Below are positions 39,033 to 64,000 of a stretch of 64,000 bases of DNA, piece after piece. The stretch's first letter is position 1; each line of letters starts with the position of its first letter. The translations under genes and the position numbers were made by a program. The stretch comes from Natrinema sp. DC36 (GTDB lineage: Archaea; Halobacteriota; Halobacteria; Halobacteriales; Natrialbaceae), in contig NZ_CP084472.1 of the NCBI RefSeq assembly GCF_020405225.1, positions 3,410,001-3,474,000 on the forward strand. Direction: 5' to 3'. Below the pieces are notes generated by a model that was given only the letters and a program-made list of their open reading frames with translations, was not told the DNA's origin and did not search any database.

Positions 39033-39455
39033 TCATTCCGACGGCGTGAACGCTTCGGCCCCCGCACCGGCGATCGCGACGTCTTCCGAAACGTCACCGC
39101 CGCTGGCACCGACCGCGCCGACGACCTCCCCGTCGTACTCGATCGGGATGCCGCCGCCGAACGTGACGACGCGATTGTCGTCCGTCGACTGGAGCCCGTA
39201 TACGTCGCCGCCCGGTTCGGATCCCTCCTTCAGGTCCTCCGTCGGCTTCTTTACGGCCGCCGCGGTGTAGGCCTTGTCACGCGCGATACTCGCCGCGACG
39301 AGCTTCGCGCCGTCCTGTCGGCGAAACGCGAGGAGGTTTCCCTCGTGGTTCGTTACGGCGAGGTTCATCGGGACGCCGAGTTCGTTCGCCTTGGCTTCGG
39401 CAGCGTCCAGGATCTCTTTCGATTCGTCTAACGAAACCGAGTGGTGGGACTGCAT
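39033..39455 (-). CDS. GlcG/HbpS family protein
   Basis: A 140-residue protein of the GlcG/HbpS (DUF336) family. The SLDESKEILDAAEAKANELG start, AVTNHEGNLLAFRRQDGA, ARDKAYTAAAVKKPT and GGIPI...GAVGASGG blocks are typical. HbpS binds haem; other members occur in sugar-acid, diol and glycolate operons with unknown roles. The ATG at 39455 has TTTATA 26-31 bases upstream (39481-39486), fitting a leaderless transcript. It is the outermost gene of the sugar locus. Confidence 0.85.
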   Translation of the reverse strand: MQSHHSVSLDESKEILDAAEAKANELGVPMNLAVTNHEGNLLAFRRQDGAKLVAASIARDKAYTAAAVKKPTEDLKEGSEPGGDVYGLQSTDDNRVVTFGGGIPIEYDGEVVGAVGASGGDVSEDVAIAGAGAEAFTPSE

Positions 39456-39480
39456 TTCACCCGAAAGAGGTCGGCCCACG

Positions 39481-39486
39481 TATAAA
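39481..39486 (-). promoter_or_regulatory. TATA box of the GlcG-like gene
   Basis: TTTATA on the minus strand, 26-31 bases before the ATG at 39455. Confidence 0.65.
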
Positions 39487-39664
39487 TCAGCTTCGGCTCG
39501 GCGAACGTAGCGCGGGCGCGGACCAGTCGGATACTCGTCGTGGTCCGACCACGTCACTCACCGAGGACAGGACTCGCGGGACGGTTTATCGACGGGTCTC
39601 GAGCGGGCGGGGTGATGGGATGTCATCGATGTCGATCGATGCTGGTCGCACGGACCGCGCCGCA

Positions 39665-40507
39665 TTACGCCGGCGGGGAGTCCCACGTCTCGCCGTTGTC
39701 CTGGGGCTCGTAGTCGATCGTCTCCCGGGCGTTTTCGATGCTGTACCAGCGGCGATCGTTATCGCTGACGCCGCTGAAGATTTCGAAGCCGGGGTCGTCG
39801 GTTTGGAGACAGCAATCCATCATGTGCGCGAAGTCCCGGCGGGACTGCCACATGGCTTTCATCCGTGCGACCTGCTGTTCGTACTGGTCGCTTCCGCGTT
39901 CGCATTCGCCGTCGTCGACGTCGTGTTCGGCGTCACCGTAGGGATGGTCGTACTCGGGCATCCGCACGCTACAGATCCGGATCGCGTGGGCTCGTTTCGG
40001 GTACTCGTAGTTCTCGACGTAGTACCGACAGAGGTCTTCGCCGAAACTCTTCGAAACGCCGTAGTACGAGTCCGGTCGGACCGGATCCTCGTGGGAGAGC
40101 TGGAAGGGTGCCTCGGATCCGAAGTAGAGTTCGGGGGCGTTCTCGGACTCGTACATGCCCATCACGTGATTCGAGGAGGCGAACACGACCGTCTCGAGTT
40201 CCGCAGTCCGTGCGGCCTCGAGGGCGTTTAGTACCCCGATGACGTTGGGCTGGTGGACGTCGTTCCACGTGCCGTCGGTGAAGGGATAGCCCGCGAGGTG
40301 GATCATCGCGTCTTGATCGGCGGCCGCGCTCCGAACGGCGGTCGCATCGGCGACGTCGCCGACGACGGTTTCGTACTCCCCGTATTCGTCCCCGTCGTCC
40401 GGATCGTTCCGGTCGAGATAGGTGAAGTCGTAGTCGGGGTCGTCGTGAAGGTGGTCGATGATGGCGGTTCCACACCGTCCGTACGCACCAGTCAGTAGGA
40501 CGTTCAC
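39665..40507 (-). CDS. NAD-dependent uronate dehydrogenase-like protein
   Basis: A 280-residue short-chain epimerase/dehydratase-fold protein. It has the nucleotide motif TGAYGRCG at the N-terminus, the catalytic YGVSK with Tyr and Lys, and the blocks HLAGYP, ASSNHVMGMY and AIRICSVRMPEY. This set resembles uronate dehydrogenase (Udh) and the haloarchaeal Azf glucose-6-phosphate dehydrogenase, which share ancestry. With GH105, a cycloisomerase-like and a KdgD-like gene near, oxidation of D-galacturonate to galactarolactone is the likeliest role. The GTG at 40507 is chosen because a TATATTA-like box lies at 40531-40537; the longer start at 40549 would lie upstream of it. Confidence 0.78.
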   Translation of the reverse strand: MNVLLTGAYGRCGTAIIDHLHDDPDYDFTYLDRNDPDDGDEYGEYETVVGDVADATAVRSAAADQDAMIHLAGYPFTDGTWNDVHQPNVIGVLNALEAARTAELETVVFASSNHVMGMYESENAPELYFGSEAPFQLSHEDPVRPDSYYGVSKSFGEDLCRYYVENYEYPKRAHAIRICSVRMPEYDHPYGDAEHDVDDGECERGSDQYEQQVARMKAMWQSRRDFAHMMDCCLQTDDPGFEIFSGVSDNDRRWYSIENARETIDYEPQDNGETWDSPPA

Positions 40508-40607
40508 AGGTGTTGGGTCTGCCGCGTGTGATATAATAGTTCGGATCACGCACCCGGATCCGGGGCCGCGACCGTGGTCTCCGAGGAAGTCCAGTGACTG
40601 GTCGACG

Positions 40608-41684
40608 TTACTGACCGTCAGTAAACTGCGACGCGGCCAGCAGGAAAAAGCCCTGTCCGTACGACGTCGACGTCAGCGGTGCGCCAGGACCGCCCGGCGG
40701 CCCGGCGACGCGGCGGACGGCCCCCTCGTCGTCGACGAGACCGATCGCGACGTCCATCGCGTCCCGCGCCGCCCGCTCGTACTTCTCGTCTTCGATGATG
40801 CCCAGCTCCAGGGCGCGCTCGAACGCGTAGGTGTACATGAGCGTCCCCGAACTCTCGAGGGGGGTGTGGGGATCGTCGACGATGTTGTACCACATACCGC
40901 TGTCGTCCTGTCGCTCCACGACCGCCGAGGCGACGTCCCGGAAGATTTCGACGAGTTCCTCGCGATCGGGATGGTCGTCGGGGAGGAACTCGAGAACGTC
41001 GACGATCGCCGCCTGTATCCAGCCGTTGCCGCGGGCCCAGAAGGTGCTCTGGGGGTAGCTGTTCGGCTGTTCGTGCCAGATGTGTCGGAACAGTCCCGTG
41101 TGCGGATCCTGGAGGTGTTTCGCGTGAACGATGAGTTGTCTGGCGGCCTCGTCGACGGCCTCGGGCTCGTCTGCGGCCGCCCCGTACCGGGCGAAGAACG
41201 GACACATCATGTAGACCGAGTCGATCCACAGCCCCTTCACGCCGGACAGCTCCGGGACGTGATGGGGGATACCGCCGTCTTCGGTCCGCTCGACCGACTG
41301 GAGGTTCTCGTACTCGCCGCGGGCGGCCTCGAGGTAGCGTTCGTCGCCGGTCCGTCGATAGAACTCGAGGACGCCGTGGCCGATCGAGGTCGTGTTGTTC
41401 GTGTTCATCGCCTTCCGCTCGTCGATCTCCCAGTGAGCGTCGTACTCCTTACCGTGTTGAAAGACCTCGATCGGATAGCTCGGCCCGTAGGAGAGCTGGC
41501 CGTTGCTGTCCTGGGTCTCGACCGAACGATCGACGAGCGCCCGTGCTGCCTCGAGACAGTCGTCGCGGTCGGTGGCGAGTAGCCCGTTTATCGCGACACC
41601 TTTCTGCCAGACCTCGTTTTCCATGTCCGTATCGATCGTATACGATGCGACGGCTGCGATCGCCTCGTCGAGGGACTGCGTCAT
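40608..41684 (-). CDS. GH105 unsaturated rhamnogalacturonyl/glucuronyl hydrolase
   Basis: A 358-residue (alpha/alpha)6-barrel hydrolase, GH105 (YteR/YesR type). It hydrates the double bond that polysaccharide lyases leave on the terminal uronic acid, releasing 5-keto-4-deoxyuronate and a rhamnose-ended sugar. The catalytic Asp is in GLWIDSVYMMCPFFARYG, and FWARGNGW is the second signature. No signal peptide, so it acts on imported oligosaccharides. The ATG at 41684 is chosen from family length and the TATA-like ATTTATC at 41717-41723. Ulvan oligosaccharides are an alternative substrate, but no sulfatase is in the window. Confidence 0.9.
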   Translation of the reverse strand: MTQSLDEAIAAVASYTIDTDMENEVWQKGVAINGLLATDRDDCLEAARALVDRSVETQDSNGQLSYGPSYPIEVFQHGKEYDAHWEIDERKAMNTNNTTSIGHGVLEFYRRTGDERYLEAARGEYENLQSVERTEDGGIPHHVPELSGVKGLWIDSVYMMCPFFARYGAAADEPEAVDEAARQLIVHAKHLQDPHTGLFRHIWHEQPNSYPQSTFWARGNGWIQAAIVDVLEFLPDDHPDREELVEIFRDVASAVVERQDDSGMWYNIVDDPHTPLESSGTLMYTYAFERALELGIIEDEKYERAARDAMDVAIGLVDDEGAVRRVAGPPGGPGAPLTSTSYGQGFFLLAASQFTDGQ

Positions 41685-41812
41685 AGTGACGATAGCTAAC
41701 TCTCCGCGGGATCGCTGATAAATCTTGCTGACGGGACGAACGCGGCGATACTCGGCACCGATCGTCCGGCTACCCGACACCGAATCGCAGCGAGAGATCG
41801 AATGACGATACG

Positions 41813-41842: not shown

Positions 41843-42772
41843 ATGGCGTCCGAGAAGCTACAGGACGGACTGCGAAGCGTCGCTGCCGGACTGTTGACAC
41901 CGTTCGACGACGATGGCGAAATCGACCACGAGAAACTGACCGCAAACGCCGAGGCACTCTCGAGCGACGGGCTCAGTACGTTCCTCGCGTGTGCGAACAT
42001 CAGCGAGTATCACTCGCTGTCCCATCAGGAGCGTATCGACGTCACCGAGACCAGTGTGTCGGCGCTGCCCGACGACGCGTGCGTCCTCGCCGGGGTCGGC
42101 GGGAGTACGAAGACCGCACGCGACCTCATCGCCGCCTACGACGAGATCGGCGTCGACGCGATGATGATCATGCCGCCGGACCACACCTACGTCCACGAAC
42201 GGGGGCTCCTCGAGTACTACGAGGCCCTCGCGAACGCGGCCGAGGTCGGCATCGTCCCGTACGTCCGCGGCTTCGAGCCGTCCGTGTCGTTCCTCGCGTC
42301 GCTGACCGAGATCGAGGGCGTGGCCGGAATCAAGTACGCCATCCCGGACGCGGTCAAGCTCGGGCAGGCGGTCGCGGCCGGCGACGACGACGTCGTCTGG
42401 GTAGACGGCATGGCCGAACCGCACGCGCTGTCGTTCTGGGTCCAGGGGGTCGAGGGGTTCACCGCCGGCGTGACGAACTTCGAACCGCGTCTCGGGCAGG
42501 CGTTGCTAACGGCGTTACGCGACGAAGACTGGGTGCGCGCTCGAGCCCTTCAGAACGCGGCCGTCCCGTACCAGCAGTTCCGTAACGGAACGGGCGAGGA
42601 CAATACGCTCGCGGACGCGATCAGCGTCCCGGCCGTCAAGTACGGGCTCGAGCTCGCGGGCTACAACGGCGGCGCCGTCCGCGAGCCGATCGTCGGTCTG
42701 TCGGCGGCCGACCAGCAGCGGGCCGAAACGCTCTACGAGGAACTCCAGTCCGATCTCGACCGTCTTCTCTGA
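41843..42772 (+). CDS. DapA-superfamily dehydratase/aldolase (KdgD-like)
   Basis: A 309-residue class I aldolase-superfamily protein. The Schiff-base Lys is in GVAGIKYAIPD and the catalytic Tyr in IVPYVRGFEPS, whose Tyr-x-Arg pattern recalls 5-dehydro-4-deoxyglucarate dehydratase (KdgD) rather than dihydrodipicolinate synthase. KdgD turns the galactarate-derived keto-acid into 2-oxoglutarate semialdehyde and CO2, which fits the galacturonate genes around it. Alternatives are a 2-keto-3-deoxy sugar-acid aldolase. Leaderless promoter. Not lysine biosynthesis: no lysine genes are near. Confidence 0.75.
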   Translation: MASEKLQDGLRSVAAGLLTPFDDDGEIDHEKLTANAEALSSDGLSTFLACANISEYHSLSHQERIDVTETSVSALPDDACVLAGVGGSTKTARDLIAAYDEIGVDAMMIMPPDHTYVHERGLLEYYEALANAAEVGIVPYVRGFEPSVSFLASLTEIEGVAGIKYAIPDAVKLGQAVAAGDDDVVWVDGMAEPHALSFWVQGVEGFTAGVTNFEPRLGQALLTALRDEDWVRARALQNAAVPYQQFRNGTGEDNTLADAISVPAVKYGLELAGYNGGAVREPIVGLSAADQQRAETLYEELQSDLDRLL

Positions 42773-43289: not shown

Positions 43290-43595
43290 TTAGATCATCC
43301 GGTACACTTCGTCCATCCACTGATCCGAGTCGTCGTCGACGGTGATCCCCTCCATCTCCTCGGCCCAGCGGGCCTGCGCGTCGCTCTCGTCCATTACTTC
43401 TTGGATCGCATCCGGGTCCTCGAGTTCCAGGAACCCGAAAACGTGCCCGTCGGATTCGAAGACGCTGTAGGTCTCGAGCCCGGCGTCGGACTCGAGGTAG
43501 GCGTCCTCGAGCCACTGTGGAACGTTCTCGTGGGCCTCGCGATACGCTTCGCGCTGTCCGTCCGCTATTTCGAGGTGGAACGCAATGCGTGCCAT
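43290..43595 (-). CDS. rhaM: L-rhamnose mutarotase
   Basis: A 101-residue dimeric alpha/beta-barrel protein that interconverts the alpha and beta anomers of L-rhamnose. The RIAFHLEIADGQREAYREAH start (with the Tyr and His of the active site), the YSVFESDGHVFGFLE strand and RWAEEMEGI are diagnostic. The ATG at 43595 has CTATAG/ATAGCTATAG at 43621-43630 as promoter. Its presence is the clearest marker that the locus handles free L-rhamnose. Confidence 0.92.
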   Translation of the reverse strand: MARIAFHLEIADGQREAYREAHENVPQWLEDAYLESDAGLETYSVFESDGHVFGFLELEDPDAIQEVMDESDAQARWAEEMEGITVDDDSDQWMDEVYRMI

Positions 43596-43656: not shown

Positions 43657-44802
43657 TCACTCGAGCCGGTAGCGGTCGACGGCCGACTCGTCGACCTCGA
43701 TACCGAGGCCGGGGTCCTGTGGCACGGCGAGTTCACCGCCGGTCGGATCGAACGGCGACTCGAGCAGGTCGTTTCGAAGCGGGTTCTCGCTGCGATCGAA
43801 CTCGAAGAGGACGGGATCGGGCTCCATCCCCTCGGCGTGGGGATACGTCGATAGGCTCGCGGCGAACTGCAGCGCGGCCGCGGTCCTGACCGCGCTGTTC
43901 CAGACGTGCGGTCGGACGACCGCGTTCGCCGTCGTCGCCAGCGTCGCGAGGAACCGCGCCTCGGCGAAGCCGCCACAGCGTCCGAGATTGGGCTGGACGA
44001 CGTCGATCAGTCCGTCCTCCAGCAGCCGCGCGAACTCGAACCGACCGTAGTGGGCTTCGCCGGCCGCGAGGGGCGCGTCGACGCGCTCCCCGATCTTGCG
44101 GTAGCCCCCGTAGTTCTCTGGCGGGACCGGCTCTTCGACCCACGTCAGGTCGTAGGGCTCGAGTTCGCGGATCGACGCGATCGCCCCTCGCGGCGTGTAG
44201 TTGCCGTTGAAATCGACCATCAGGTGCGCGTCGTCGCCGAGGATCTCGCGGGCGATCTCGACGCGCCGACGGTCGTCCTCGCGGCCGCCGCCGATCTTGA
44301 TCTTCGCCGCGGTGAACCCCTCCGCGACGGCCGCTTCCATGGGGTCGGCCGGGTCCTCTCCCCACTCGGTGAGGTACATCGTCGACGCGTAGGGAACGAC
44401 TGACTCGACCCGACGGCCGCCGAGCAGTTCGTGGATCGGCTTTCCGACCGCCTTGCCCCGAAGGTCCCACATCGCGACCTCGATCCCCGAGAGCGCGGAC
44501 TGTGCGAGCGCCTCGCGGGCGGCGTGGTAGCCGCCGATGTCGCCGGTGTAGACGCGATCGGCCAGGGATTCGGCCGCGACCGGGGAACTCCCGAGCACGG
44601 CGTCGGCGAACTCGTCCTCGATCAACGCCGCGACCGCCCGCGGCGAGGCGAAGGCTTCGCCCCAGCCGACCGTCCCGTCGGCCGTCTCGAGCCGAACGAG
44701 CGTCGCCGATCGCGACTCGGTCATCCCGCGCGAGCCGCCGAACGCGCGGCCCGCTTCTAGCTCGTGTGACAGCGGAATCGCTGTGACATCGGTGATCTCC
44801 AT
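43657..44802 (-). CDS. Enolase-superfamily dehydratase, galactarolactone cycloisomerase-like
   Basis: A 381-residue mandelate-racemase/muconate-lactonizing family protein. Catalytic and metal residues are visible: AKIKIGG (Lys-x-Lys), LMVDFNGNY, WVEEPV, AAGEAHYG and RPHVWNS. The C-terminal run CGGFAEARFLATLA and PHVW...AALQFAAS closely recalls bacterial D-galactarolactone cycloisomerase (Gci). Gci opens and dehydrates galactarolactone to the keto-acid used by KdgD. A sugar-acid dehydratase of another specificity is the alternative. Probably co-transcribed with the LLM oxidoreductase upstream (125-base gap). Confidence 0.8.
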   Translation of the reverse strand: MEITDVTAIPLSHELEAGRAFGGSRGMTESRSATLVRLETADGTVGWGEAFASPRAVAALIEDEFADAVLGSSPVAAESLADRVYTGDIGGYHAAREALAQSALSGIEVAMWDLRGKAVGKPIHELLGGRRVESVVPYASTMYLTEWGEDPADPMEAAVAEGFTAAKIKIGGGREDDRRRVEIAREILGDDAHLMVDFNGNYTPRGAIASIRELEPYDLTWVEEPVPPENYGGYRKIGERVDAPLAAGEAHYGRFEFARLLEDGLIDVVQPNLGRCGGFAEARFLATLATTANAVVRPHVWNSAVRTAAALQFAASLSTYPHAEGMEPDPVLFEFDRSENPLRNDLLESPFDPTGGELAVPQDPGLGIEVDESAVDRYRLE

Positions 44803-44927: not shown

Positions 44928-45959
44928 CTACCGGAACTGCGGTGCGACTTCGTCGGCGAACAGTTCCATACCGCCGGTGTCGGGGAAGTCGACGAACCAA
45001 CACTGAAACTTCGTGACGCCGGCGTCGATCCGCCGCTCGATCGCCTCGGCGCACTCCTCGGGCGTTCCCATGATGAAGTAGTCGCGAGCGATCTCCTCGG
45101 TCGTGATGTCGGCCTGATCGACGTATTCCTCCTCGAACTGGATCGGGATCATCAGCTCGAGCAGGCGCTCGTATTTCTCGGGGTCGCGCGTACAGATGAC
45201 GTGGCCGTCCCAGGAGTACTCGATCTCGTCGGGATCGCGGCCGACCGTCTCGCAGTGGTCCTCGATGACGCCGATCTTGTGTTCGAGGGTCTCCGGCGTC
45301 CCGTTGAACACGTCCGTGTTCCAGATGTCGGCGTGTTTCGCGACGAGTTTCAGCGTCACGTCTTCGCCCTGCCCGCCGACGAGGATCGGCGGGTGCGGGT
45401 CCTGAACCGGTCCGGGCTCGCAGTGCGCGCCGTCGATCTCGTAGCGCTCGCCAGCGAACGAGGCGGCCTCGCCGGGTTCGGTGGCCCACAGTTCCTTCAT
45501 GAGCCGGATACCCTCGTCCAACCGCATCAGCCGCTCGAAGCCGTCGCGGTACTCCCAGCCGTAGGCCTCGTACTCGGGCTCGTGCCAGCCGGCACCGAGC
45601 CCGAGCTCGAGGCGACCGTCGGAGATCACGTCGAGCGTCGCGGCCATCTTCGCGACGAGCGCGGGGTTGCGGTAGTCGTTACACAGCACGAGCGATCCGA
45701 GGTCGATGTCGTCGGTGAGGCCCGCCAGTGCGGACAGCAGCGTCCAGCACTCGTACTCGGCGTGATCCCGGCCGAGCATGAGGTGGTCCGGTGCCCACGC
45801 GGCGTCGAAGCCGAGTTCCTCGGCTTTCAGAACGCCCTCCTTCGTCGTCTCCCAGTCGAGTCGCTCGTAACACGGCGTGTCGCGGTGGACGGGATCGGTT
45901 CCCGACTCCGGCGCGCCCGCGAACACCGGGACGTTGTATTCGAACGTGATGTCGCTCAT
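44928..45959 (-). CDS. F420-dependent LLM-class oxidoreductase, substrate unknown
   Basis: A 343-residue luciferase-like (LLM) TIM-barrel protein. The start FEYNVPVFAG, GFDAAWAPDHLML, LDVISDGRLELGLGAGWHEPEY and PPILVGGQGED are typical of the F420-binding branch. That branch includes F420-dependent glucose-6-phosphate and alcohol dehydrogenases, as well as reductases. It sits 3 bases downstream of the rhamnonate dehydratase and upstream of the cycloisomerase gene, so it is co-transcribed with catabolic enzymes. Since no SDR-type L-rhamnose dehydrogenase is in the window, oxidation of the sugar itself is a possible role, but this is inference. Confidence 0.85.
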   Translation of the reverse strand: MSDITFEYNVPVFAGAPESGTDPVHRDTPCYERLDWETTKEGVLKAEELGFDAAWAPDHLMLGRDHAEYECWTLLSALAGLTDDIDLGSLVLCNDYRNPALVAKMAATLDVISDGRLELGLGAGWHEPEYEAYGWEYRDGFERLMRLDEGIRLMKELWATEPGEAASFAGERYEIDGAHCEPGPVQDPHPPILVGGQGEDVTLKLVAKHADIWNTDVFNGTPETLEHKIGVIEDHCETVGRDPDEIEYSWDGHVICTRDPEKYERLLELMIPIQFEEEYVDQADITTEEIARDYFIMGTPEECAEAIERRIDAGVTKFQCWFVDFPDTGGMELFADEVAPQFR

Positions 45960-45962
45960 GGA

Positions 45963-47168
45963 TCACTCCACGCTGTAGTGCTCGAGGGCCTCGGGGTTGG
46001 TCGCCGAACTCAGCCCGACGGTGTCGGGCAGGGGGATGGTCCCGTTCTCAGCGTTCGGCGGGTTGGCGTAGATGGCGTCGGCGTAGGTCGACTCCTGTTC
46101 TCCCTGGCGCTCCTGATACCACTCGGGGATCGGGAAGTACTCCGCCATCGGCGCGTTGGTCGAGGCGGCGATGAAGTGCAGGGTCGGGTTCGTCCCGGAG
46201 TGGGGGATCACCGGCACGTCGCGAGCGCTCGCCATGGCGTCGATCCGCTGGAGTTCCGTCAGGCCGCCACAGCGGTGGATGTCGGGCTGGAGGATGTCGA
46301 CGGCCTCGCGCTCGAGCAGTTCTTTGTGGCCCCAGCGGGTAAACTCGTGTTCGCCGCCGGAGATGGGAACGTTCGACGCCTCGCGGACCTCCGCGTAGCC
46401 GTCGATGTCGTCGGGGATGACCGGCTCCTCGACCCACTCCATGTCGTAGCGCTCGAGGCGCTTGAGCATCTTCTTGGCGTATCGAACGTTCCAGCCCATG
46501 TACGCGTCGCCGGCGATCGCGATCTCGTCGCCGACGGCGTCGCGAACCGTCTCGACGATCTTCTCGTTTTCTTTCATGCCCTGCCGACCCGCTTCCGGGC
46601 CGTACCGGAACCGCAGCTTCATCGCGTCGAAGCCCTGCTCAGCGTAGTTCTGCGCCTCGCGCGCGAGCGTCTCGTGATCGAGCGGGTGGAGGTTGCTCGC
46701 GTAACAGGGGATGTCGTCCGTGACCGGGCCGCCCAGCAGTTCGTAAACCGGCTTCTCGGCTTCCTTGCCGGCGATATCCCAGAGCGCGAGGTCGATAGCG
46801 CTGATGGCCTCGATCGCCGCGCCCTTCCGACCGAAGGGGATCGTCGCCCGGTACATCATGTCCCACAGTCGTTCGCGCTGGTGGGGGTCCTCGCCGACGA
46901 CGAGCTTCGAGAGCGTCTCGTTGACGATCGTCTCGATCGAGCCCGTCGCCCAGTTGCCGACGCCGATGCCGGTGATACCCGCGTCGGTCTCGACCTCCAC
47001 GACGACGTCGCCGACCGGCCCCATCCACTTCCGACGGGCCTCCGGGTTGTCGCCGTCGGCGTTGTTGTACTCGTCGAACTTGCTCATAACGGTGACGAGC
47101 GGGAACTCGACGAACTCGCCCCAGGAATCGGTACTGACCTTCGTGACGGTAATATTCGTTATCTCCAT
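45963..47168 (-). CDS. L-rhamnonate dehydratase-like enolase-superfamily enzyme
   Basis: A 401-residue enolase-superfamily protein that should dehydrate L-rhamnonate to 2-keto-3-deoxy-L-rhamnonate. Metal ligands lie in GDAYMGWN, WVEEPV and SGGEHEFTRWG, and the catalytic His in IPHSGTNPTLH. The long N-terminal segment, MKLRFRYGP in place of the usual Lys-x-Lys, DILQPDIHRCGGLTE and NAPMAEYFP follow the RhamD subgroup pattern. The ATG at 47168 is chosen over 47222, since TATAAA lies at 47228-47233 on the minus strand and leaves a leader of about 37 bases. Divergent from the zinc dehydrogenase. Confidence 0.85.
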   Translation of the reverse strand: MEITNITVTKVSTDSWGEFVEFPLVTVMSKFDEYNNADGDNPEARRKWMGPVGDVVVEVETDAGITGIGVGNWATGSIETIVNETLSKLVVGEDPHQRERLWDMMYRATIPFGRKGAAIEAISAIDLALWDIAGKEAEKPVYELLGGPVTDDIPCYASNLHPLDHETLAREAQNYAEQGFDAMKLRFRYGPEAGRQGMKENEKIVETVRDAVGDEIAIAGDAYMGWNVRYAKKMLKRLERYDMEWVEEPVIPDDIDGYAEVREASNVPISGGEHEFTRWGHKELLEREAVDILQPDIHRCGGLTELQRIDAMASARDVPVIPHSGTNPTLHFIAASTNAPMAEYFPIPEWYQERQGEQESTYADAIYANPPNAENGTIPLPDTVGLSSATNPEALEHYSVE

Positions 47169-47227
47169 AAGTCTGAATTCACTTCCGACGAACTCAGTCC
47201 GACGTGTGTCTAACAGCCACATAAGTG

Positions 47228-52657: not shown

Positions 52658-52728
52658 CACCTCAGAATTTCTGTCCTGGATCTTGAATCTTTCTCTCGGG
52701 TCGCGGGGACGGCCCACACCCGCCCCGA

Positions 52729-55640: not shown

Positions 55641-57122
55641 TCAGTAGTTATCGTAGACGGTCTTCTCGATCGTGTAGAACTCCAGCCCCTCGTCGCCCTG
55701 TTCGCGCCAGGTCTCGCTCGAGGAGTCTTTCATCCCGCCGAAGGGGACGTGGAGCTCGAGGCCGGTCGTCTTCGCGTTGACCTTGGCGACGCCAGCCTCG
55801 ATCTCGTCGACGAAGCGGTTGGCCTCGGTGTGGTCGTCCGTGACGACGCTCGCGGAGAGGCCGTAGTCGACGCCGTTGGCGACCGCGAGCGCGTCGTCGA
55901 AGTCCTCGACCTCGAGGACGGCGAGCACGGGGCCGAACACCTCCTCCTGTGCGAGGCGCATCGACGGCTCGACGTCGGAGAAGACCGTCGGCTCGACGTA
56001 GTAGCCGTCGCGATCGAGCGCCGAGCCGCCGGTCTCGAGGGTCGCGCCTTCCTCCCGGGCGATGTCGACGTACTCGAGGGTCGCGCCTTCCTCCCGGGCG
56101 ATGTCGACGTACTCGAGGGTGCCCTCGAGTTCGGACTCGCTGACGTGGGGTCCCATGTCGGACTCCTCGAGCCCCGGGCCGGGCTCGATCGCCGCGGCGC
56201 GGTCGACGACCGCCTCGACGAACTCGTCGTAGACGTCCGTGTGGACGATCGCGCGTGAGCAGGCGGTACAGGCCTGGCCGGTCACGCCGAACGCGCCCGC
56301 GGCGACGATGTCGGCGGCCTCCTCGACGTCAGCGCTGTCCGAAACGATCGTCGGGTTCTTGCCGCCCATCTCGAGCTGGACGCGCTTGCCGTCCTCGGTC
56401 GCCTGATCGTAGACACTGGTACCGACCGCAGTGGAGCCGGTGAAGGAGATCGCGTCGACCGAGTCGCTGGTAACGAGTTCTCCGCCGACGCTGCTGCCGG
56501 GGCCGGTCACGAAGTTGGCGACGCCGTCGGGGAGCCCCGCTTCGTCGAGCGCCTCGAAGATCGCGTGTGCGACGCCGGGGGCGATCGATGCCGGCTTGAG
56601 AACGGCGGCGTTACCGGCAGCGAGCGCGGGTGCGAGCTTCCACGCCGGAATGGCGATCGGGTAGTTCCACGGCGTGATCAGGCCGACGACTCCGAGGGGC
56701 TCTTTGACCGTATACAGGGTCGTGTCCCGACTGCTCGGGCTCTTGACCGTCCCGCCGAGGTCGTGCGTCTTCGAGCCGTAGTAGCGGAAGATGTCGATCG
56801 CGCGCTGCACCTCGCCGGCGGCCTCGCCCCTCGTCTTCCCCTCCTCGCGGACCAGTAGTTCCGTCAGTTCGTCTTTCCGATCGGCGAGAATACGACCCGT
56901 CTCCGCGAGGATCCGTCCTCGTTCGGGCCCCGGGGTCGCGCCCCACTCGTCCGCCGCCGCCGCCGCGGCCTCGATGGCCCGTTCCGCGTCGGCCGCACTC
57001 GATTGCTGGTAGCGCGCGACGACTTCGTCCGGCGCGGCCGGGTTCTCGACCGTAATGGTATCGCCAGTTTCGGATTCGATCCACTCTCCGTCGACGTAAT
57101 TGCGTTGCTCGACAGCCATCAT
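55641..57122 (-). CDS. Aldehyde dehydrogenase with internal 13-residue duplication
   Basis: A 493-residue NAD(P)-dependent aldehyde dehydrogenase. The Glu in QLEMGGKN (about 251) and the catalytic Cys in GQACTACS (about 285) are intact, and the ITPWNYP and FTGSTAVG blocks are present. It may oxidise 2-oxoglutarate semialdehyde (end of the galacturonate route) or lactaldehyde. A block of 13 residues (YVDIAREEGATLE) is repeated exactly, near residues 335-360, from a perfect 39-bp tandem duplication. The protein is otherwise of usual length plus 13. The start is the ATG at 57122 or the next codon 57119, supported by TTATGC at 57145-57150. Confidence 0.9.
   Translation of the reverse strand: MMAVEQRNYVDGEWIESETGDTITVENPAAPDEVVARYQQSSAADAERAIEAAAAAADEWGATPGPERGRILAETGRILADRKDELTELLVREEGKTRGEAAGEVQRAIDIFRYYGSKTHDLGGTVKSPSSRDTTLYTVKEPLGVVGLITPWNYPIAIPAWKLAPALAAGNAAVLKPASIAPGVAHAIFEALDEAGLPDGVANFVTGPGSSVGGELVTSDSVDAISFTGSTAVGTSVYDQATEDGKRVQLEMGGKNPTIVSDSADVEEAADIVAAGAFGVTGQACTACSRAIVHTDVYDEFVEAVVDRAAAIEPGPGLEESDMGPHVSESELEGTLEYVDIAREEGATLEYVDIAREEGATLETGGSALDRDGYYVEPTVFSDVEPSMRLAQEEVFGPVLAVLEVEDFDDALAVANGVDYGLSASVVTDDHTEANRFVDEIEAGVAKVNAKTTGLELHVPFGGMKDSSSETWREQGDEGLEFYTIEKTVYDNY
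56041..56118. repeat. Perfect 39-bp tandem duplication within the aldehyde dehydrogenase gene
   Basis: Unit 1 is 56041-56079 and unit 2 is 56080-56118, identical at every base. The bases CTCGAGG end each unit and also stand just before unit 1, a 7-base homology that would allow slippage. The reading frame is kept. Confidence 0.95.
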
Positions 57123-57210
57123 CGAACAGTACTCGAACTGATGCATAACGATTTCGGTCGTCGGAAGCGGTCGCCACCGGCTCGAGTCGCGATCCGCTTC
57201 GACGCCGGAA

Positions 57211-58875
57211 TCAGAGCGGCGGGACGTTACCCGCGGTCCGGTATCCGCAGTCGCCGTCGATCGCCGTCTCGGCGGCGATGCAGTCGTTGGTCGCGAACAG
57301 GCGCGCGTCGTCGCAGGCCGCCGTCGCGAGGAAGGTCCCGGTGCCCGAACCCGCTCGACAGTTCCTGATCGTACTCGCCGTCGTTCCCTCGAGGGAGATC
57401 GCGGCGGCCGTCCCCGCGGACGCCGTCTCCCCGTCCCCCGCCGGCTGCGCCTGCCGTCCCGCGAAGCCGTCGATCGTGACCCCGTCGACGTCGACGCAGC
57501 GAACGCCGTGTGCGAAGTAGTCCGGAAGGTCGTCGCCCCACTCGAGCGCGACGTCGGACAGTTCGAGGTCGGCGACGCCCTCGCAGTGGAGTCCCGAGAT
57601 GTCGGCGGCGGTGATCGGTGCGGTGACCGCGGTCGGCTGCAGATCGACGTTCCCGCCGACCGCGTCGGCGTGGCGACCCGCCTCGATCGACACCGAGATC
57701 GACTCGAGACGAACGTCCTCGAGCGTCGCGTCCGCGTGGCCGTAGACGAGCGCGCCGTTCTCGGCGTCGGCGACGACGTTCGAGAACCGGACGTCCCTGA
57801 CCGCGCCGAGGTCGGTCTCCCCGTCGCGCGGGACGGACGTCACGTAGATCGGCTCGGCCTTCCCCCACCACGGCCCCGGCAGCAGGCGCGTCTCGAGGGT
57901 GACGTTCGAGAACAGGACGTGCTCGATGGAGCCGCCGTCGCGGTGTTGGATCCCCAGCCCCCGATTCGAGCCGTAGACGACGCAGTTGTCGACCGTGCAG
58001 TGTCGGATGTCGCCGCTCGTCTCGGAGCCGAGCTTGATCGCGCACGCGCTCGAGGCCAGCGTACAGTTAGTGACGGTCACGTGCTCGCATGGCCGTTTTC
58101 GGTCGTCGTGAGAGACGAGCGTGATCGCGTCGTCGCAGGCCTCGATCGCGCAGTCGGAGACGCGGACGTTCCGGGAGTTGCCGATCGCGATCCCGTCGCA
58201 GTTCGGGATCCGCATGTGGTTGCGGATCGTCACGCCGCGGACGTTGACGTCGACGCAGTCGTCGAGGCTGAGCGTCCACGCGGGCATGTCCCGCAGCGTG
58301 ACGTCGCGGATCGAGACCCCCTCGCAGTCGACGAGGTGAATCATCGGCCCCGGTCGGAACGACGGCTTCGCGACCGGCCACTCGTCGGTCGCTCCCGACC
58401 GGTCGAGGTAGTCGTCGCCCTGTCGGGCGCGATGGGGCGCGTTCGAGACGAGCGGGTGCCCCTCGCTCTCGCCGGAGTGCTGCCGGATCGGTTCGTCGGT
58501 GTCCATGAACTCGGTCCCGCGCCCGTCGATCGTCCCCTCGCCGACGAGTGCGACGTTCTCGACGCCCTCCGCGAGCACGAACGGCCGCTCGCCGTCGGGG
58601 CCGACGTGGCGGTCGACGAACGCTGCATCCGACGCTGCGGGACGCAGACGGGCCCCCGCCTCGAGACGGAGAGTCACGTTACTGCGGAGGTGGACGGTCC
58701 CCAGGACGTACTCGCCGCTCGAGACGGTGACGGTCCCGCCGCCGTCCTCGTGACGGGCGTCGATCGCGCGCTGGAAGCGCTCGGTCGTGCGTTCGTGCGC
58801 CGACTCCGCGTCTCGGTTCGATTCGGCGGTCGGGTCGATCCGAACCGACGCAGACGGCTCCGTGTGCTCGGTCAT
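57211..58875 (-). CDS. GH28-like parallel beta-helix protein without signal peptide
   Basis: A 554-residue protein with polygalacturonase-like (GH28) parallel beta-helix repeats between about residues 60 and 420. A modified set of GH28 signatures is visible: NCDGIAIG for NTDG, ACDDAITL for GDD, and IKLGSETSG plus NRGLGI in place of the GHG and RIK motifs. FAHGVR near the C-terminus is outside the expected place. The Asp triad may thus be present but the others differ. There is no signal peptide, so it is probably cytoplasmic. The ATG at 58875 has TTTATA at 58902-58907; a longer frame to 58962 would start upstream of the promoter. Likely cuts imported pectic oligosaccharides. Confidence 0.8.
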   Translation of the reverse strand: MTEHTEPSASVRIDPTAESNRDAESAHERTTERFQRAIDARHEDGGGTVTVSSGEYVLGTVHLRSNVTLRLEAGARLRPAASDAAFVDRHVGPDGERPFVLAEGVENVALVGEGTIDGRGTEFMDTDEPIRQHSGESEGHPLVSNAPHRARQGDDYLDRSGATDEWPVAKPSFRPGPMIHLVDCEGVSIRDVTLRDMPAWTLSLDDCVDVNVRGVTIRNHMRIPNCDGIAIGNSRNVRVSDCAIEACDDAITLVSHDDRKRPCEHVTVTNCTLASSACAIKLGSETSGDIRHCTVDNCVVYGSNRGLGIQHRDGGSIEHVLFSNVTLETRLLPGPWWGKAEPIYVTSVPRDGETDLGAVRDVRFSNVVADAENGALVYGHADATLEDVRLESISVSIEAGRHADAVGGNVDLQPTAVTAPITAADISGLHCEGVADLELSDVALEWGDDLPDYFAHGVRCVDVDGVTIDGFAGRQAQPAGDGETASAGTAAAISLEGTTASTIRNCRAGSGTGTFLATAACDDARLFATNDCIAAETAIDGDCGYRTAGNVPPL

Positions 58876-58901
58876 CTCGTCCGGTTCATCGGAACGGACG
58901 G

Positions 58902-58907
58902 TATAAA
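58902..58907 (-). promoter_or_regulatory. TATA box of the GH28-like gene
   Basis: TTTATA on the minus strand, 27-32 bases before the ATG at 58875. Confidence 0.65.
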
Positions 58908-59032
58908 TCCCTCCGCTCGCTGGCGTGGTATCGATCTCCGATCGGTAATCTCCCAGCGACATAGGTGGTGGTAAGAATTAAGTTCACGAACGGTGACTGA
59001 TACCGTGTCGCAATGGCGCGACAGTGTTTGCC

Positions 59033-61081
59033 ATGAGCAACGAGAGCGATCAGCGGACGACGGAGCAGTCGCCTCGAGCGGAAACCGACGCCTCGACCTC
59101 GATGGGGCGACGCGGAGCGATGGCGGTCCTCGGTGCCGCCGGACTCGGGACGGCCCTGACCGGCGCGGCGAGCGCCCGGGGCGACGAGGGGAAGGGCGGT
59201 CCGAACACCGGCAACCAGCCGTGGTACGAATGGGACGCCGACGTCGACGCCGGCGGGAACGGTCTGTACGATCTGACCGCCCTCGACGTAGACCACACGT
59301 ATACGGGCGCCAGAGAGGCCGATGTCATCGTCTGGCGCGACGACGATGGCGTCTATCACGCCGACGGCGAAGACGACGCGGTGGCCAGCGGCGAGGAGCC
59401 GATGCCCATCGTCCAGGCGGCGGTCGACGCGCTGGACGACGACCGGACGACGAAGGCCACGGTCCGCGTCGCCGCGGACCTCGAGGTCAGCGAGGACCAC
59501 GAGCGAACGGGCGTGGACGTACCGAGTCACACCCGACTCGACGTCGCGGGGGAGGTGACGGTCGACGGCGAGACCGACGCCGTCCTCTCGATGCGGAGCG
59601 TCGAGAACGTCGAGATTCCCCGGCTCACCGTGACCGGTTCGGCGAGCCAGGCGATCTTCGCCGACGACTGCTCGGAGTTGACGATCGGGCGCCTGTGGAT
59701 CGACGGCGTCACCGTCCAGGGCGTCCGGATTCAGGGCGGCAGTTCCGACGTCCAGATCGATACCGCCTACGTGACGAACACGGGCCACCACGGGATCGAG
59801 ACCTACGACGTCGAACGGATCCAGATCGGACAGGTGACCGGCGTCGATCCGGGCAGTAGCGTACTGCTGTTGAACGAGACGTTCGACGCGAGCGTCGGTC
59901 AGGTCGTCGGCGAGAACCCCTCGTTCGACTACGCGACGTTCCGGCTCGCGAACGGCTGTCGGAACGTGTCGGTCGGCCGCGTCGTCAGCCGCGGCGGCGT
60001 CCGCGGCCTGTCGATCATCACCGGTACGCGCGATGTCACCGTCGGCGAAGTCAACGTTCGGGGCGGCTCGAAGGCCGGTATCCTGCTGGTCGACGTCAGG
60101 AACGTGAAGATCCTCGGGGGCGTGATCAAGAACTTCGACGGCCCCGGCGTCAACTTCTGGTCGCTCGGGCTGCAGGGTGCCGCCTCGGAGATCAACGAGG
60201 GGATCACGCTCGCCAACCTCCGGATCACCGACGACCGCGACGACCCGTCCCAGCCGTGGGCGATCAGGGAAGACGGGGCATGCCTCCACAACCAGTTCGT
60301 CAACAACGACGTCCGCGGCGGCGGGACCGAGGGCCTCATCAGGGTCGCCTCCGAGACGACCGTCGTCGACGGTAACGTCGGCGGCGGTCTCGATCAGGGG
60401 ACCGTCACCCTCGAGTCCGGGTCCTCGCCGGCCGCCCGGGTGTCGGGGGTTGCCGAGTACTATCGCTCGACGATCGAGGCCCGCACGATGCCGTCCGGCG
60501 AGGCGGGCGCGTCGGCCGCCTGGGAGCAGTACCCCGAGTGGAACGGCGAGTCGTGGGACCTCGTCTTCGAGTGGCGGACCGACCCCGGCACGGACGTCGA
60601 CGTCGACTACGTCGTCGACCAGCCGCGCGCGACGATCGGCCGATCGATCGATCGGGACGCCCTCTGGGACGAGGCGGTCCAGTCGATCGAACCCGGGACG
60701 TACCGCGTCGTCGCCGAACACAGCGGCAAGGTCCTGGAGGTCGCGGACGGCTCGACGGCCGCGGGCGCGCCGATACAGCAGGGCGAGTGGGCTGACGAGC
60801 CCCACCAGCGCTGGGTCGTCGACGGCAGCATGGACGGTCGACAGGGCCGCTTTACGCTCGCCGCGGAACACAGCGACAAGGGGATCGCGTTCTCCGGGAC
60901 CGAGGCGGTTCAGGGCAGCGTCACGGAGTACCGGATGGAACGGTACGAGACCGGCTTCCAGATCGACGTTCCCGGCGGCCGACTGGAGGTCGCCGAGGGC
61001 TCGACGGTCGACGGCGCTCCCGTTCGCGCCGGCGACTGGGAGGGTGAACCGAACCAGATCTGGCGGTTCGAGCGGTTGTAA
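59033..61081 (+). CDS. Tat-exported beta-helix protein with C-terminal ricin-type lectin domain
   Basis: A 682-residue exported protein. The twin-arginine signal is MGRRGAMAVLG (Arg26-27) with a GAASA cleavage site. QPWYEWDADVDAGG at 62-75 is identical to the other beta-helix protein at 48685. The middle (about 115-470) is built of short repeated strands (for example VENVEIPRLTVTGS and VRNVKILGGVIKNF), typical of parallel beta-helix polysaccharide-active enzymes. The last 128 residues are a ricin-type beta-trefoil with EPHQRW and EPNQIW repeats, a sugar-binding fold. Start ATG at 59033; a GTG at 59024 is less likely. No catalytic triad that I could point to. Confidence 0.82.
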   Translation: MSNESDQRTTEQSPRAETDASTSMGRRGAMAVLGAAGLGTALTGAASARGDEGKGGPNTGNQPWYEWDADVDAGGNGLYDLTALDVDHTYTGAREADVIVWRDDDGVYHADGEDDAVASGEEPMPIVQAAVDALDDDRTTKATVRVAADLEVSEDHERTGVDVPSHTRLDVAGEVTVDGETDAVLSMRSVENVEIPRLTVTGSASQAIFADDCSELTIGRLWIDGVTVQGVRIQGGSSDVQIDTAYVTNTGHHGIETYDVERIQIGQVTGVDPGSSVLLLNETFDASVGQVVGENPSFDYATFRLANGCRNVSVGRVVSRGGVRGLSIITGTRDVTVGEVNVRGGSKAGILLVDVRNVKILGGVIKNFDGPGVNFWSLGLQGAASEINEGITLANLRITDDRDDPSQPWAIREDGACLHNQFVNNDVRGGGTEGLIRVASETTVVDGNVGGGLDQGTVTLESGSSPAARVSGVAEYYRSTIEARTMPSGEAGASAAWEQYPEWNGESWDLVFEWRTDPGTDVDVDYVVDQPRATIGRSIDRDALWDEAVQSIEPGTYRVVAEHSGKVLEVADGSTAAGAPIQQGEWADEPHQRWVVDGSMDGRQGRFTLAAEHSDKGIAFSGTEAVQGSVTEYRMERYETGFQIDVPGGRLEVAEGSTVDGAPVRAGDWEGEPNQIWRFERL

Positions 61082-61443: not shown

Positions 61444-61450
61444 CGTCAGA

Positions 61451-62629
61451 TCACCCCTGAACCCCTTCCGACGAATCGATCTCCGCTTTCGCCGGCAGCC
61501 CCTCGATGAGCGAGTGTGCGATCGCGTCGCCGCTTTGCCCGTCGAAGAGATGCACTTTCTCCCGATCGAGGACGATCTCGACCGTCTCGTCCTCGGCGAT
61601 GGCGGTACTGGGATCGAGGGTCACGAGCAACTCGGCGCCGTCTTTGCCCATCAGCTCCGGATCGTCCGAGGCCGCGCTCACCGGGACCAGATACGCGTAC
61701 GTCTGGTCGCCGACCGGCTCGAGCACGTCGACGACGGCCTCGAAGGAGGCGCTCGCGCTCGCGGGCTCGTCGTCGCTGCCGGTGAGGTAGACGTCCTCCG
61801 GCCGAACCCCGACCCTGACATCGGACCCGTCGTGTTCGCTCCCGAGTTCGTGGCGGAGCGTGAAGTGCTCGAGGTCGACCTGCTCCCCCGTTACCGTGCC
61901 GTCGAAGACGTTCATCGACGGGCTGCCGATGAAACTCGCGACGAACTCGTTGGTCGGTCGGTTGTAGCACTCGAGGGGCGGTGCACACTGCTGGAGCGTT
62001 CCCTGGTTGATGATGGCGATGCGGTCGGCCATCGTCATCGCCTCCTCCTGGTCGTGGGTCACGTACACGGTCGTGATCCCCAGGTTCTTCTGTAGTCGCT
62101 GGATCTCCGTCCGCATGTGGACCCGCAGCTTCGCGTCGAGGTTGGCCAGCGGCTCGTCCATGAGGAACACTTCCGGTTCGCGGACGATCGCGCGGGCGAT
62201 CCCGACGCGTTGCTGTTGGCCGCCGGAGAGTTCGCTCGGGCTGCGATCGAGCATCCCCTGAAGCTGGACGGTCTTGGCCGCCCTCTCGACGCGACGGTCG
62301 ATCTCGTCTTTGTCGAAGCTCCGGAGCCGCAGCCCGAAACTGATGTTCTCGTAGACGTCCATGTGGGGGAACAGGGCGATGTTCTGGAAGACCATCGAGA
62401 TGTTCCGGTCCTTCGGCGGTTCGTTCGTCACGTCCTCGCCGGCGATCTCGACGGTTCCGCTCGAGGGGAGCGTTAGCCCCGAGATCATCTCCAGCGTCGT
62501 CGACTTTCCACAGCCCGACGGGCCGACGAGACAGAGGAACTCGCCCTCCTCGATCTCGATGTTCATCTCCTCGACCGCGACGACGGCGTCGTACCGCTTT
62601 GTCGTATCTTTTAGATTAACGTGTCCCAT
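61451..62629 (-). CDS. Carbohydrate ABC transporter ATPase (MalK/UgpC type)
   Basis: A 392-residue ATPase with the CUT1-type layout: ABC domain to about 235, then the regulatory OB-fold domain. Walker A GPSGCGKST is at 36-44, the signature is LSGGQQQR, and Walker B is VFLMDEPLANLD. The MAL-type motifs such as VTHDQEEAMT and FIGSPSMN are present. It energises uptake of oligosaccharides through the two permeases upstream. Four bases separate it from the permease gene. Confidence 0.93.
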   Translation of the reverse strand: MGHVNLKDTTKRYDAVVAVEEMNIEIEEGEFLCLVGPSGCGKSTTLEMISGLTLPSSGTVEIAGEDVTNEPPKDRNISMVFQNIALFPHMDVYENISFGLRLRSFDKDEIDRRVERAAKTVQLQGMLDRSPSELSGGQQQRVGIARAIVREPEVFLMDEPLANLDAKLRVHMRTEIQRLQKNLGITTVYVTHDQEEAMTMADRIAIINQGTLQQCAPPLECYNRPTNEFVASFIGSPSMNVFDGTVTGEQVDLEHFTLRHELGSEHDGSDVRVGVRPEDVYLTGSDDEPASASASFEAVVDVLEPVGDQTYAYLVPVSAASDDPELMGKDGAELLVTLDPSTAIAEDETVEIVLDREKVHLFDGQSGDAIAHSLIEGLPAKAEIDSSEGVQG

Positions 62630-62633
62630 GTTG

Positions 62634-63551
62634 TCACTCCTTTAGTCCGCCTTGAGTTAAGCCTCTAACGATATGTTTCTGTGCGAAGACGACCAGCAGT
62701 GCGACGGGAATGATCCCGACGATGCTCGCCGCTGCCATCATGTTGTACAGCTGTCCACCCTGCTGTTCGAACTCGAGGATGCCGTAGACCAGCACCGCCC
62801 AGTTGTCGGCCTCGCCGTCGGTCATCATGAACGAGAAGAAGAACTCCCGGTAGACGCTGATGAAGACGATTATCGCCGCCGTCGTGACGCCGGGGGCCGA
62901 CAGCGGCAGGATCACCCGGAACAGGGCCCCGAGTCGCGTCGTCCCTTCGACTCTGGCGGCGTCCTCGAGCCCGTCGGGGATCTGGCTGAAGAACGTCGTG
63001 AGGATGAAGATCGTGAGCGGGAGCGTCAACATCGTGAACGGGAAGGCCATCGCCCACGGCGTGTTGTAGAGGTCCGGCGTCATGAACGGTCCGATGGTTA
63101 GCGTACCCGTCAGCATCTCGTATAGCGGGATCAGGTACGCGATCCCGGGGAAATACGAGACGACGAGCAACAGCAACATCAGCGGTGCCTTGCCCCGGAA
63201 GTCGACGCGGCCGAACGCGTACCCCGCGAGACTACCGATCAGCAGGCAGATAACCACCGTCAGCATCGCGATAACGATGCTGTTGAAGACGTAGTGGTGG
63301 ATCGGATACTCCTGGAATATCTCGACGAACACCGCGACGTTCGTTCCCTCGGGCAGGATCCCCATCCCGTAGAGTTGATCGCTGGGCGTGATCGCCAGGA
63401 CGAACAGCCAGTAGAACGGGAACAGCGTCACGATGATGAACGACGTCAGCCCGACGTAGAACAGGATCCTGTAGGTGTCGTACGGGTTGTTGATGAGCAG
63501 GTCGACGAGCTGCCCGACGCGACTTCGCGAGTCGTCTCGGACGTTACTCAC
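62634..63551 (-). CDS. Carbohydrate ABC transporter permease (MalG type)
   Basis: A 305-residue permease with six predicted helices. The EAA loop that docks to the ATPase is visible as EDAARVEGTTRLGALFRVILP. The C-terminal AQKHIVRGLTQGGLKE is typical of CUT1 MalG proteins. It overlaps the next permease gene by 8 bases. Confidence 0.93.
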   Translation of the reverse strand: MSNVRDDSRSRVGQLVDLLINNPYDTYRILFYVGLTSFIIVTLFPFYWLFVLAITPSDQLYGMGILPEGTNVAVFVEIFQEYPIHHYVFNSIVIAMLTVVICLLIGSLAGYAFGRVDFRGKAPLMLLLLVVSYFPGIAYLIPLYEMLTGTLTIGPFMTPDLYNTPWAMAFPFTMLTLPLTIFILTTFFSQIPDGLEDAARVEGTTRLGALFRVILPLSAPGVTTAAIIVFISVYREFFFSFMMTDGEADNWAVLVYGILEFEQQGGQLYNMMAAASIVGIIPVALLVVFAQKHIVRGLTQGGLKE

Positions 63552-64000
63552 TGGTAGTCACCTCGTTGCGGAATTTGATGAGATATACCATCACGATCAG
63601 GGCGATGATGAGCGCCGTCAGGAAGGCGATTGCGGAGGCGGTCGCCCACCGCTGCATACGGAACGTATCGACGACGAGGCAGGTTAGCGTCGGGACCGTG
63701 CTACAGCCTGCGGAGGCCTCGACGATGCCGTAGACCTTCATCGAACTGATCGTGTAGAAGATCATGCCGATGAACACGACCGGCTTGATCAACGGGAACG
63801 TGATCAGTTTGAATTGCTGCCACTTCGAGGCGCCGGCGACTTTGGCGACATCGTAGAGGCTCTGATCCACGCTCGCGAGTCCGGCGAGGATGATAAGCGC
63901 CATGAACGGCACCCGCCGCCAGACGTCGACCAGCATGATCACGATCATCGAATCGCGCGTACTGACGAGCGGGTTCGCCGAGAACAGGCCGAGGCTGTGC
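63544..64000 (-). CDS. Carbohydrate ABC transporter permease (MalF type), cut by the window edge
   Basis: The open frame runs off the right edge; the visible 152 codons are its C-terminal part. The EAA loop DVAKVAGASKWQQFKLITFP and the preceding WRRVPFMALIILAGL are typical of MalF. Together with the MalG, ATPase and 59-residue genes it forms a polycistronic importer. The binding protein is not in the window and is expected beyond the edge. An in-frame ATG at 63948 is not its true start. Confidence 0.93.
   Translation of the reverse strand, partial: HSLGLFSANPLVSTRDSMIVIMLVDVWRRVPFMALIILAGLASVDQSLYDVAKVAGASKWQQFKLITFPLIKPVVFIGMIFYTISSMKVYGIVEASAGCSTVPTLTCLVVDTFRMQRWATASAIAFLTALIIALIVMVYLIKFRNEVTTSE

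Follow-up and report, generated by a model that had tools for sequence, protein, structure and literature searches.

We analysed a window of 64,000 nucleotides from the 5.1-Mb genome of the haloarchaeon Natrinema sp. DC36 (contig NZ_CP084472.1, here C1, positions 3410001 to 3474000), in which a locus at window positions 39033-64000 carries genes for L-rhamnose and D-galacturonate breakdown. We propose, with a probability of roughly 0.4, that this locus imports and oxidises both backbone sugars of rhamnogalacturonan I, and that a luciferase-like oxidoreductase (LLM, encoded at 44928-45959) oxidises rhamnose at C1, probably with coenzyme F420. The LLM gene had been overlooked in the initial annotation. 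It is the most useful lead in the locus and would make the pathway a variant of one already known. We first give what we observed directly: gene content, conservation and linkage.

We surveyed 391 haloarchaeal genomes drawn evenly from the class, counting as LLM orthologs matches of 77-100% identity (the next matches were at 51%) and as orthologs of the L-rhamnonate dehydratase RhcD matches at E<=1e-130. Both orthologs occurred in exactly the same 49 genomes. In all 49 the two genes shared a contig and kept one order, LLM downstream of rhcD, and the matched stretches stood 4-18 nt apart; 170 LLM positions were invariant across the 49 orthologs. The 19 plasmid records of PLSDB with LLM above 60% identity were also the same 19 with RhcD above 60%, adjacent by coordinates; these records share species with the genome sample. 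Pairwise identities of LLM and RhcD correlated weakly (Spearman 0.32). Compared with the window, genomes G271, G357 and G282 showed RhcD at 71-75% but LLM at 85-93%, so that the pair persists though one partner has diverged or been exchanged.

The pairing is not absolute. A scan of named genomes found LLM and RhcD adjacent in 32 of 35 loci (L020-L054), the other three being L043, L050 and L052. L052 resembles a broken copy of the pair. L043 and L050 have LLM at 78 and 74% and no RhcD ortholog in the stretch, and the nearest neighbour is a mutarotase gene 50-80 nt away. Because LLM stands there beside a mutarotase gene without RhcD, a free sugar is favoured as its substrate. The L050 stretch (10001-13579, Salinigranum salinum) shows an alternative arrangement, in which LLM is followed by the mutarotase, a 35% RhcD-like enolase and a short-chain dehydrogenase (SDR) at 66%.

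The one locus holds enzymes of the RhcC, RhcD, RhcE and RhcF types, which share 61, 73, 72 and 59% identity, in that order, with their annotated counterparts in Haloarcula pelagica. For the RhcD type, the best NCBIfam model was L-rhamnonate dehydratase, at 251 bits and below its cut-off of 393; the RhcF-type hydrolase scored 205.7 bits with NF053535 and did not reach the cut-off of 500. The rhc-type enzymes correspond in type to those of the diketo-hydrolase route which the initial annotation had cited as known from Haloferax volcanii. In that organism, deletion of LudBC impairs growth on rhamnose, according to PMC8305020. Since RhcE is named as 2-keto-3-deoxy-L-rhamnonate (KDR) dehydrogenase in the annotated Haloarcula pelagica record, the C1 oxidation is left without an assigned enzyme. 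The earlier claim that candidates exist for nearly every rhamnose step held for the downstream enzymes, and its list offered none for the first oxidation, from rhamnose to lactone.

This first step may normally be carried out by a linked SDR, including in Haloferax. A genome-wide search at E<=1e-60 gave no match to the linked-type SDR in the window's own genome; it found the SDR in 19 of the 49 pair-bearing genomes and no match in 30, 18 of which carry the five remaining rhc genes near LLM. The same 19 genomes were obtained by a census around LLM, made with its own identity thresholds over about 40 kb (56 kb in the window's genome, and 31.5-40 kb where a contig ended nearby). Within about 20 kb of LLM, the census counted the RhcE type in 45 of 49 genomes, the lactonase and an IclR regulator in 43 each, the mutarotase and the hydrolase in 40 each, the LUD genes in 28 each, and the SDR in 19. 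No other census gene was as constant beside LLM as RhcD.

We further compared LLM with paralogs of 40-51% identity in 20 hand-picked loci; for each gene family in these loci, one scanned representative supplied the name. A tree of 34 rows placed the rhamnose-linked rows (14 of the 49 rhamnose-type LLMs) in one supported group. Eight mutarotase-linked paralogs grouped with one mutarotase-less locus (L198) inside a neighbouring branch of 13. The 20 loci contain a RhaM-family mutarotase (8), a sugar-type ABC permease (8), an SDR (11), a UxuA-type dehydratase (5), a transaldolase-family protein (5), a PfkB kinase (4) and an RhcC-like amidohydrolase (4, 35-38% identity). Among 26 LLM positions tabulated, D58, H59, G63, E70, R97, W125, E129, D211, W213, N214 and W250 were kept in all 20 paralogs; H126 and H253 were kept in 8/8 mutarotase-linked paralogs and 5/12 others. 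Because what both locus types have in common is processing a free sugar as far as the acid, we place LLM at the C1 oxidation. We tentatively extend this to the group: haloarchaea would use a non-phosphorylating, F420-dependent, luciferase-like L-rhamnose 1-dehydrogenase, nearly always paired with rhamnonate dehydratase, and the sister branch would act likewise on another sugar, a generalisation that we hold with low confidence.

F420 is the likely cofactor of LLM. The closest subfamily model of LLM is the F420-type TIGR03560, and the Haloferax gibbonsii ortholog passes the cut-off of this model (237.3 bits). TIGR03560 also has matches in H. volcanii and Methanocaldococcus jannaschii, and in one of these species the score exceeds the cut-off. 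The F420 biosynthesis gene cofD is present in the genome. The LLM fold was modelled with a pLDDT of 87.

Several observations weigh against F420-dependent C1 oxidation by LLM. The 19 genomes with the linked SDR carry LLM as well, so there is no simple replacement, and we rejected LLM as a plain SDR substitute. An SDR 34-39% identical to that of the rhamnose loci recurs in 11 of the 20 paralog loci, and these loci are not a random sample. The published diketo-hydrolase route could depend on an NAD(P)-dependent rhamnose dehydrogenase encoded away from the locus, LLM being an accessory enzyme that accompanies rhcD (e.g., a reductase for repair or for a side product). SDRs are abundant, with 31-78 first-look candidates per genome, and a diverged one could serve. 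We regard this explanation as rather unlikely, since a gene for an accessory enzyme is not expected to stay a few bases from rhcD in every one of the 49 genomes when near some of them the lactonase, the hydrolase or the SDR is missing.

Another adverse point is that no RhcE-type gene turned up within about 20 kb in 4 of the 49 genomes, so LLM could do the KDR step instead. LLM would then oxidise KDR at C4, like an F420-dependent secondary alcohol dehydrogenase, and RhcE would be a second enzyme or the rhamnose dehydrogenase. The LLM gene does follow the dehydratase gene, and Adf (1rhc) is second among the PDB sequence matches of LLM. We find a C4 role improbable, given that RhcE bears the name of the KDR step in the annotated record and lies near LLM in 45 genomes, and that LLM adjoins the mutarotase gene in the two named loci without RhcD.

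The cofactor assignment meets difficulties of its own. The window LLM scored 221.6 bits with TIGR03560 (222.7 in a repeat), 10 bits short of the 231.4 cut-off, and a different LLM encoded elsewhere on C1 exceeds it, at 237.9 bits. Glu and Trp, which we take to be active-site residues of the F420 glucose-6-phosphate dehydrogenase (FGD), align with W125 and G63 of LLM, both invariant in the 49 orthologs; LLM was therefore rejected as an FGD. Fold comparison does not separate F420 from FMN enzymes (Z about 29-33), with Mer, SfnG, luciferase, MsuD, Adf and FGD at about 30-33. With the FMN enzymes SfnG, MsuD and luciferase in this tie, and the sulfoquinovose-acting 7oh2 and 7olf among the rows, LLM could be an FMNH2-dependent monooxygenase on a modified or sulfated deoxysugar, like sulfoquinovose monooxygenases. 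This seems quite improbable to us: the closest subfamily is of F420 type, and no flavin reductase was found among the genes scanned at 39033-64000, though two unlinked ones lie elsewhere in the genome.

The genes of the locus are listed below by window coordinates, strand and supporting match.

39033-39557, minus strand: HbpS-like heme-binding protein at the locus edge (PF03928, 127.7 bits)
39665-40507, minus strand: uronate dehydrogenase (UDH) of the NAD-dependent epimerase family (PDB matches; 66-67% paralog in a second uronate locus)
40608-41780, minus strand: GH88/GH105 unsaturated uronyl hydrolase (PF07470, 212.5 bits; PDB matches include the putative GH105 3qwt, the best, and YteR)
41843-42772, plus strand: KdgD-like dehydratase/decarboxylase of the DHDPS family (PF00701; 62% paralog in the second uronate locus)
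43290-43595, minus strand: L-rhamnose mutarotase (PF05336, 49.5 bits; 70% to an annotated Haloarcula pelagica protein)
43657-44802, minus strand: galactarolactone cycloisomerase-like member of the enolase superfamily, MLE1 (best PDB match 4ggb, 243.7 bits; 59% paralog)
44928-45959, minus strand: LLM, a luciferase-like oxidoreductase from an F420-type subfamily and candidate L-rhamnose 1-dehydrogenase (PF00296, 183 bits)
45963-47222, minus strand: L-rhamnonate dehydratase of RhcD type, MLE2 (NCBIfam model; 73% to annotated RhcD)
47442-48473, plus strand: zinc (MDR) dehydrogenase of RhcE type, KDR dehydrogenase (PF08240/PF00107; 72% to annotated RhcE)
48685-50721, plus strand: BH1, predicted Tat-type exported protein (codon usage)
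50948-51817, plus strand: L-rhamnono-lactonase of RhcC type, Amidohydro_2 (PF04909, 93.2 bits; 61% to annotated RhcC)
51821-52690, minus strand: 2,4-diketo-3-deoxy-L-rhamnonate hydrolase of RhcF type, FAH (PF01557, 239.9 bits; 59% to annotated RhcF)
52729-54954, minus strand: LudB-type lactate oxidation protein, LUD plus 4Fe-4S (PF02589, 143.9 bits; 70% to a Haloarcula pelagica LUD protein)
54954-55475, minus strand: LudC-type LUD protein (PF02589, 65 bits; 45% to a Haloarcula pelagica protein)
55641-57146, minus strand: 2,5-dioxovalerate (ketoglutarate semialdehyde, KGSA) dehydrogenase (NF052305, 853.9 bits, above the 750 cut-off)
57211-58962, minus strand: GH28-like glycosidase (PF00295, 77.3 bits)
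59024-61081, plus strand: BH2, predicted exported beta-helix plus ricin-B lectin protein (PF14200, 60.0 bits; PF13229, 30.9 bits)
61451-62629, minus strand: ATPase of a CUT1-type ABC transporter (PF00005, 130.5 bits; OB_MalK, 39.4 bits)
62634-63551, minus strand: ABC transporter permease (PF00528, 48.6 bits)
63544-64000, minus strand: second ABC permease, running past the window and followed by SBP_bac_1 and IclR genes (continuation in L009, 3-503: PF00528, 15.7 bits, below its cut-off)

From these genes we infer substrates, cofactor and C1 step as follows. Oligosaccharides would enter via the CUT1 importer, and the GH105 and GH28-like enzymes would free uronate and rhamnose inside the cell. 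UDH would oxidise galacturonate and the cycloisomerase would open the product; the KdgD-like enzyme would then remove water and CO2 before a final oxidation to 2-oxoglutarate. The mutarotase would set rhamnose to the right anomer, and LLM, encoded a few bases downstream of rhcD, would oxidise it at C1 to the lactone, probably with F420. The lactone would then pass through hydrolysis by RhcC, dehydration by RhcD, C4 oxidation by RhcE and cleavage by RhcF to pyruvate and lactate, the latter being oxidised by LudBC.

The galacturonate route named in the initial annotation was recovered, with the families of UDH, cycloisomerase, KdgD-like enzyme and semialdehyde dehydrogenase all found; UDH, cycloisomerase and KGSA dehydrogenase belong to the oxidative uronate pathway. 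At E<=1e-10, UDH matched four PDB sequences; three carry the name uronate dehydrogenase and the fourth (3ay3) is called NAD-dependent epimerase/dehydratase. We rejected the gene at 39665 as a glucose-6-phosphate dehydrogenase Azf, whose model gave 205 bits vs a cut-off of 400. The best PDB match of MLE1, 4ggb, is presumably the Agrobacterium galactarolactone cycloisomerase. The KdgD-like protein is of the right family but scored 121.9 bits with the KdgD model, not reaching the cut-off of 373.95. A second uronate locus lies on contig C2 at about 162-176 kb (L218-L219), with paralogs of the cycloisomerase (59%), KdgD (62%), UDH (66%) and the aldehyde dehydrogenase (ALDH, 67%). The joint presence of all four paralogs on C2 suggests that UDH, cycloisomerase, KdgD-like enzyme and ALDH form a unit. 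The C2 locus also holds an LLM of 30% identity next to an RhcD-like gene of 34%. In the window, an in-frame tandem duplication of 39 bp (13 residues) lies in the KGSA dehydrogenase gene at 56027-56104, its copies being 92% identical across the span reported.

The joined galacturonate and pectin-handling set had been considered the notable part, with a genome survey suggested as a check. Our survey showed that the linkage of galacturonate and rhamnose routes recurs among the 49 pair-bearing genomes, and we rejected the idea of a joint locus special to this organism. UDH was matched (E<=1e-85) in 84 of the 391 genomes, 42 of the 49 with the RhcD-LLM pair vs 42 of the 342 without, and lay within 50 kb of the pair in 23 of the former 42, 15 of these 23 being outside the Haloferax group. 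The census within about 20 kb of LLM counted UDH and KdgD in 15 genomes each, GH88 and ALDH in 14 each, a GH78-type rhamnosidase in 13, and MLE1 in 6. On the evidence of gene content, joint use of both backbone sugars is a recurrent trait of haloarchaea.

As for the polymer, PL11 rhamnogalacturonan lyases were found in 18 of the 391 genomes (15/49 with the pair, 3/342 without), within 50 kb of the pair in 10 of the 15; Fisher tests of the UDH and PL11 associations ignore shared ancestry. Natrinema sp. SYSU A 869 has three PL11 genes in the same cluster as the rhamnose pair. Since PL11 lies near the same pair in relatives, rhamnogalacturonan I fits as the source. The window's genome gave no match to PL11 or to the pectate lyase PF00544, the two lyase families searched. 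The proposed rhamnogalacturonan use was supported for both monosaccharide routes, fits the PL11 genes of relatives, and is unproven for the polymer in this organism, which may depend on oligosaccharides that others release or may use a lyase outside these two families. The locus might also serve another polymer containing rhamnose and uronate (ulvan, gum arabic, archaeal glycans), which is compatible with any reading of LLM; the lack of PL11 and PF00544 matches, and the rhamnoglycuronyl hydrolase structure 4ce7 among the GH105 relatives, speak for it. We hold this unlikely in view of the PL11 genes near the same pair in 10 relatives and the resemblance of the uronate enzymes to a galacturonate set. 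Haloarchaeal growth on such polymers is reported as failed (PMC9726719) or marginal in liquid (PMC12343721); the latter also describes one strain isolated on rhamnogalacturonan plates, which its authors credit with growth on the polymer or its hydrolysis.

Compared with known rhamnogalacturonan utilisation loci, the present one shares GH105, a GH28-like enzyme, an importer and both monosaccharide routes, with PL11 in relatives, and differs in that its genome has no PL11 match. All four enzyme families of the oxidative uronate pathway of Agrobacterium and its relatives are present, with uronate dehydrogenase and 4ggb as best PDB matches; the versions here are haloarchaeal and the KdgD cut-off is not reached. 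The L-rhamnose diketo-hydrolase pathway of H. volcanii (rhc genes) was reportedly described by Reinhardt et al. in 2019. The locus resembles it in the RhcC/D/E/F types, mutarotase, IclR regulator, CUT1-type importer and LudBC. It differs in that the window's genome has no SDR match, LudBC lies inside the locus, and the rhc genes are interleaved with galacturonate genes.

The LLM ortholog of H. volcanii is probably HVO_B0113, on the basis of its number, which by UniProt order (RhcJ = D4GPB1) presumably lies near the rhc genes. Table 4 of PMC8305020 lists HVO_B0113 as an F420-type oxidoreductase, 27% identical to Rv0132c, with no function assigned. The available parts of that article give it no pathway role, whereas the LLM family here is tied to rhcD in 49/49 sampled genomes. 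The H. volcanii pathway is cited in PMC8305020 and PMC11519228. Our literature search found no link of LLM or of an F420 enzyme to rhamnose in haloarchaea; the 2019 article (10.1111/mmi.14213) was outside this search and may mention the gene. Haloarchaea make F420, with one reaction reported by 2021 and a role called enigmatic, according to PMC8305020. A gene adjacent to rhcD in 49 of 49 sampled genomes offers a concrete handle on one such role. If our reading is right, haloarchaeal F420 would have a catabolic role, and F420H2 might then be consumed by F420-linked reductases, for example the pair at 29467-32779. The survey adds that haloarchaea often have their rhamnose and galacturonate routes linked, in some cases with rhamnogalacturonan lyases nearby.

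Conflicts between antisense frames were settled by third-codon-position GC, protein charge and a gene caller that learned codon usage from genes of the window itself; the chosen frames fit the third-position GC and codon usage of the host better than the overlapping frames. Profile searches over 39033-64000 confirmed every gene that the initial annotation had named by coordinate, in place and in family, with some starts shifted (rhaM about 43290-43595, cycloisomerase about 43657-44802, FAH hydrolase about 51821-52690). Two secreted beta-helix proteins had been described. This stood for BH2, with its beta-helix and ricin-B lectin domain, and the beta-helix fold of BH1 is unproven: BH1 has a Tat-like N terminus by eye, no sequence match in Pfam or PDB, and a fold model (2 sequences) with a mean pLDDT of 33. 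On inspection by eye, the GH28-like and GH105 proteins have no export signal. The importer said to complete the set is present and extends beyond the window end, where L009 holds the rest of the second permease (3-503), a solute-binding protein (588-2081) and an IclR regulator (2353-3117).

The HbpS-like gene (39033-39557) lies near the LLM gene in 4 of the 49 genomes, this genome and three others. Elsewhere in the window, at 29467-32779, two genes share a few bases: one encodes a 566-aa protein of the sulfite/nitrite reductase family, the other a 540-aa F420 beta subunit of FrhB/FdhB type that carries 4Fe-4S domains. Together the two are candidates for an F420H2-dependent reductase of sulfite or nitrite. 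The window also has a pair of IucA/IucC siderophore synthetase genes near each other, at 3228-5141 and 7323-9173.

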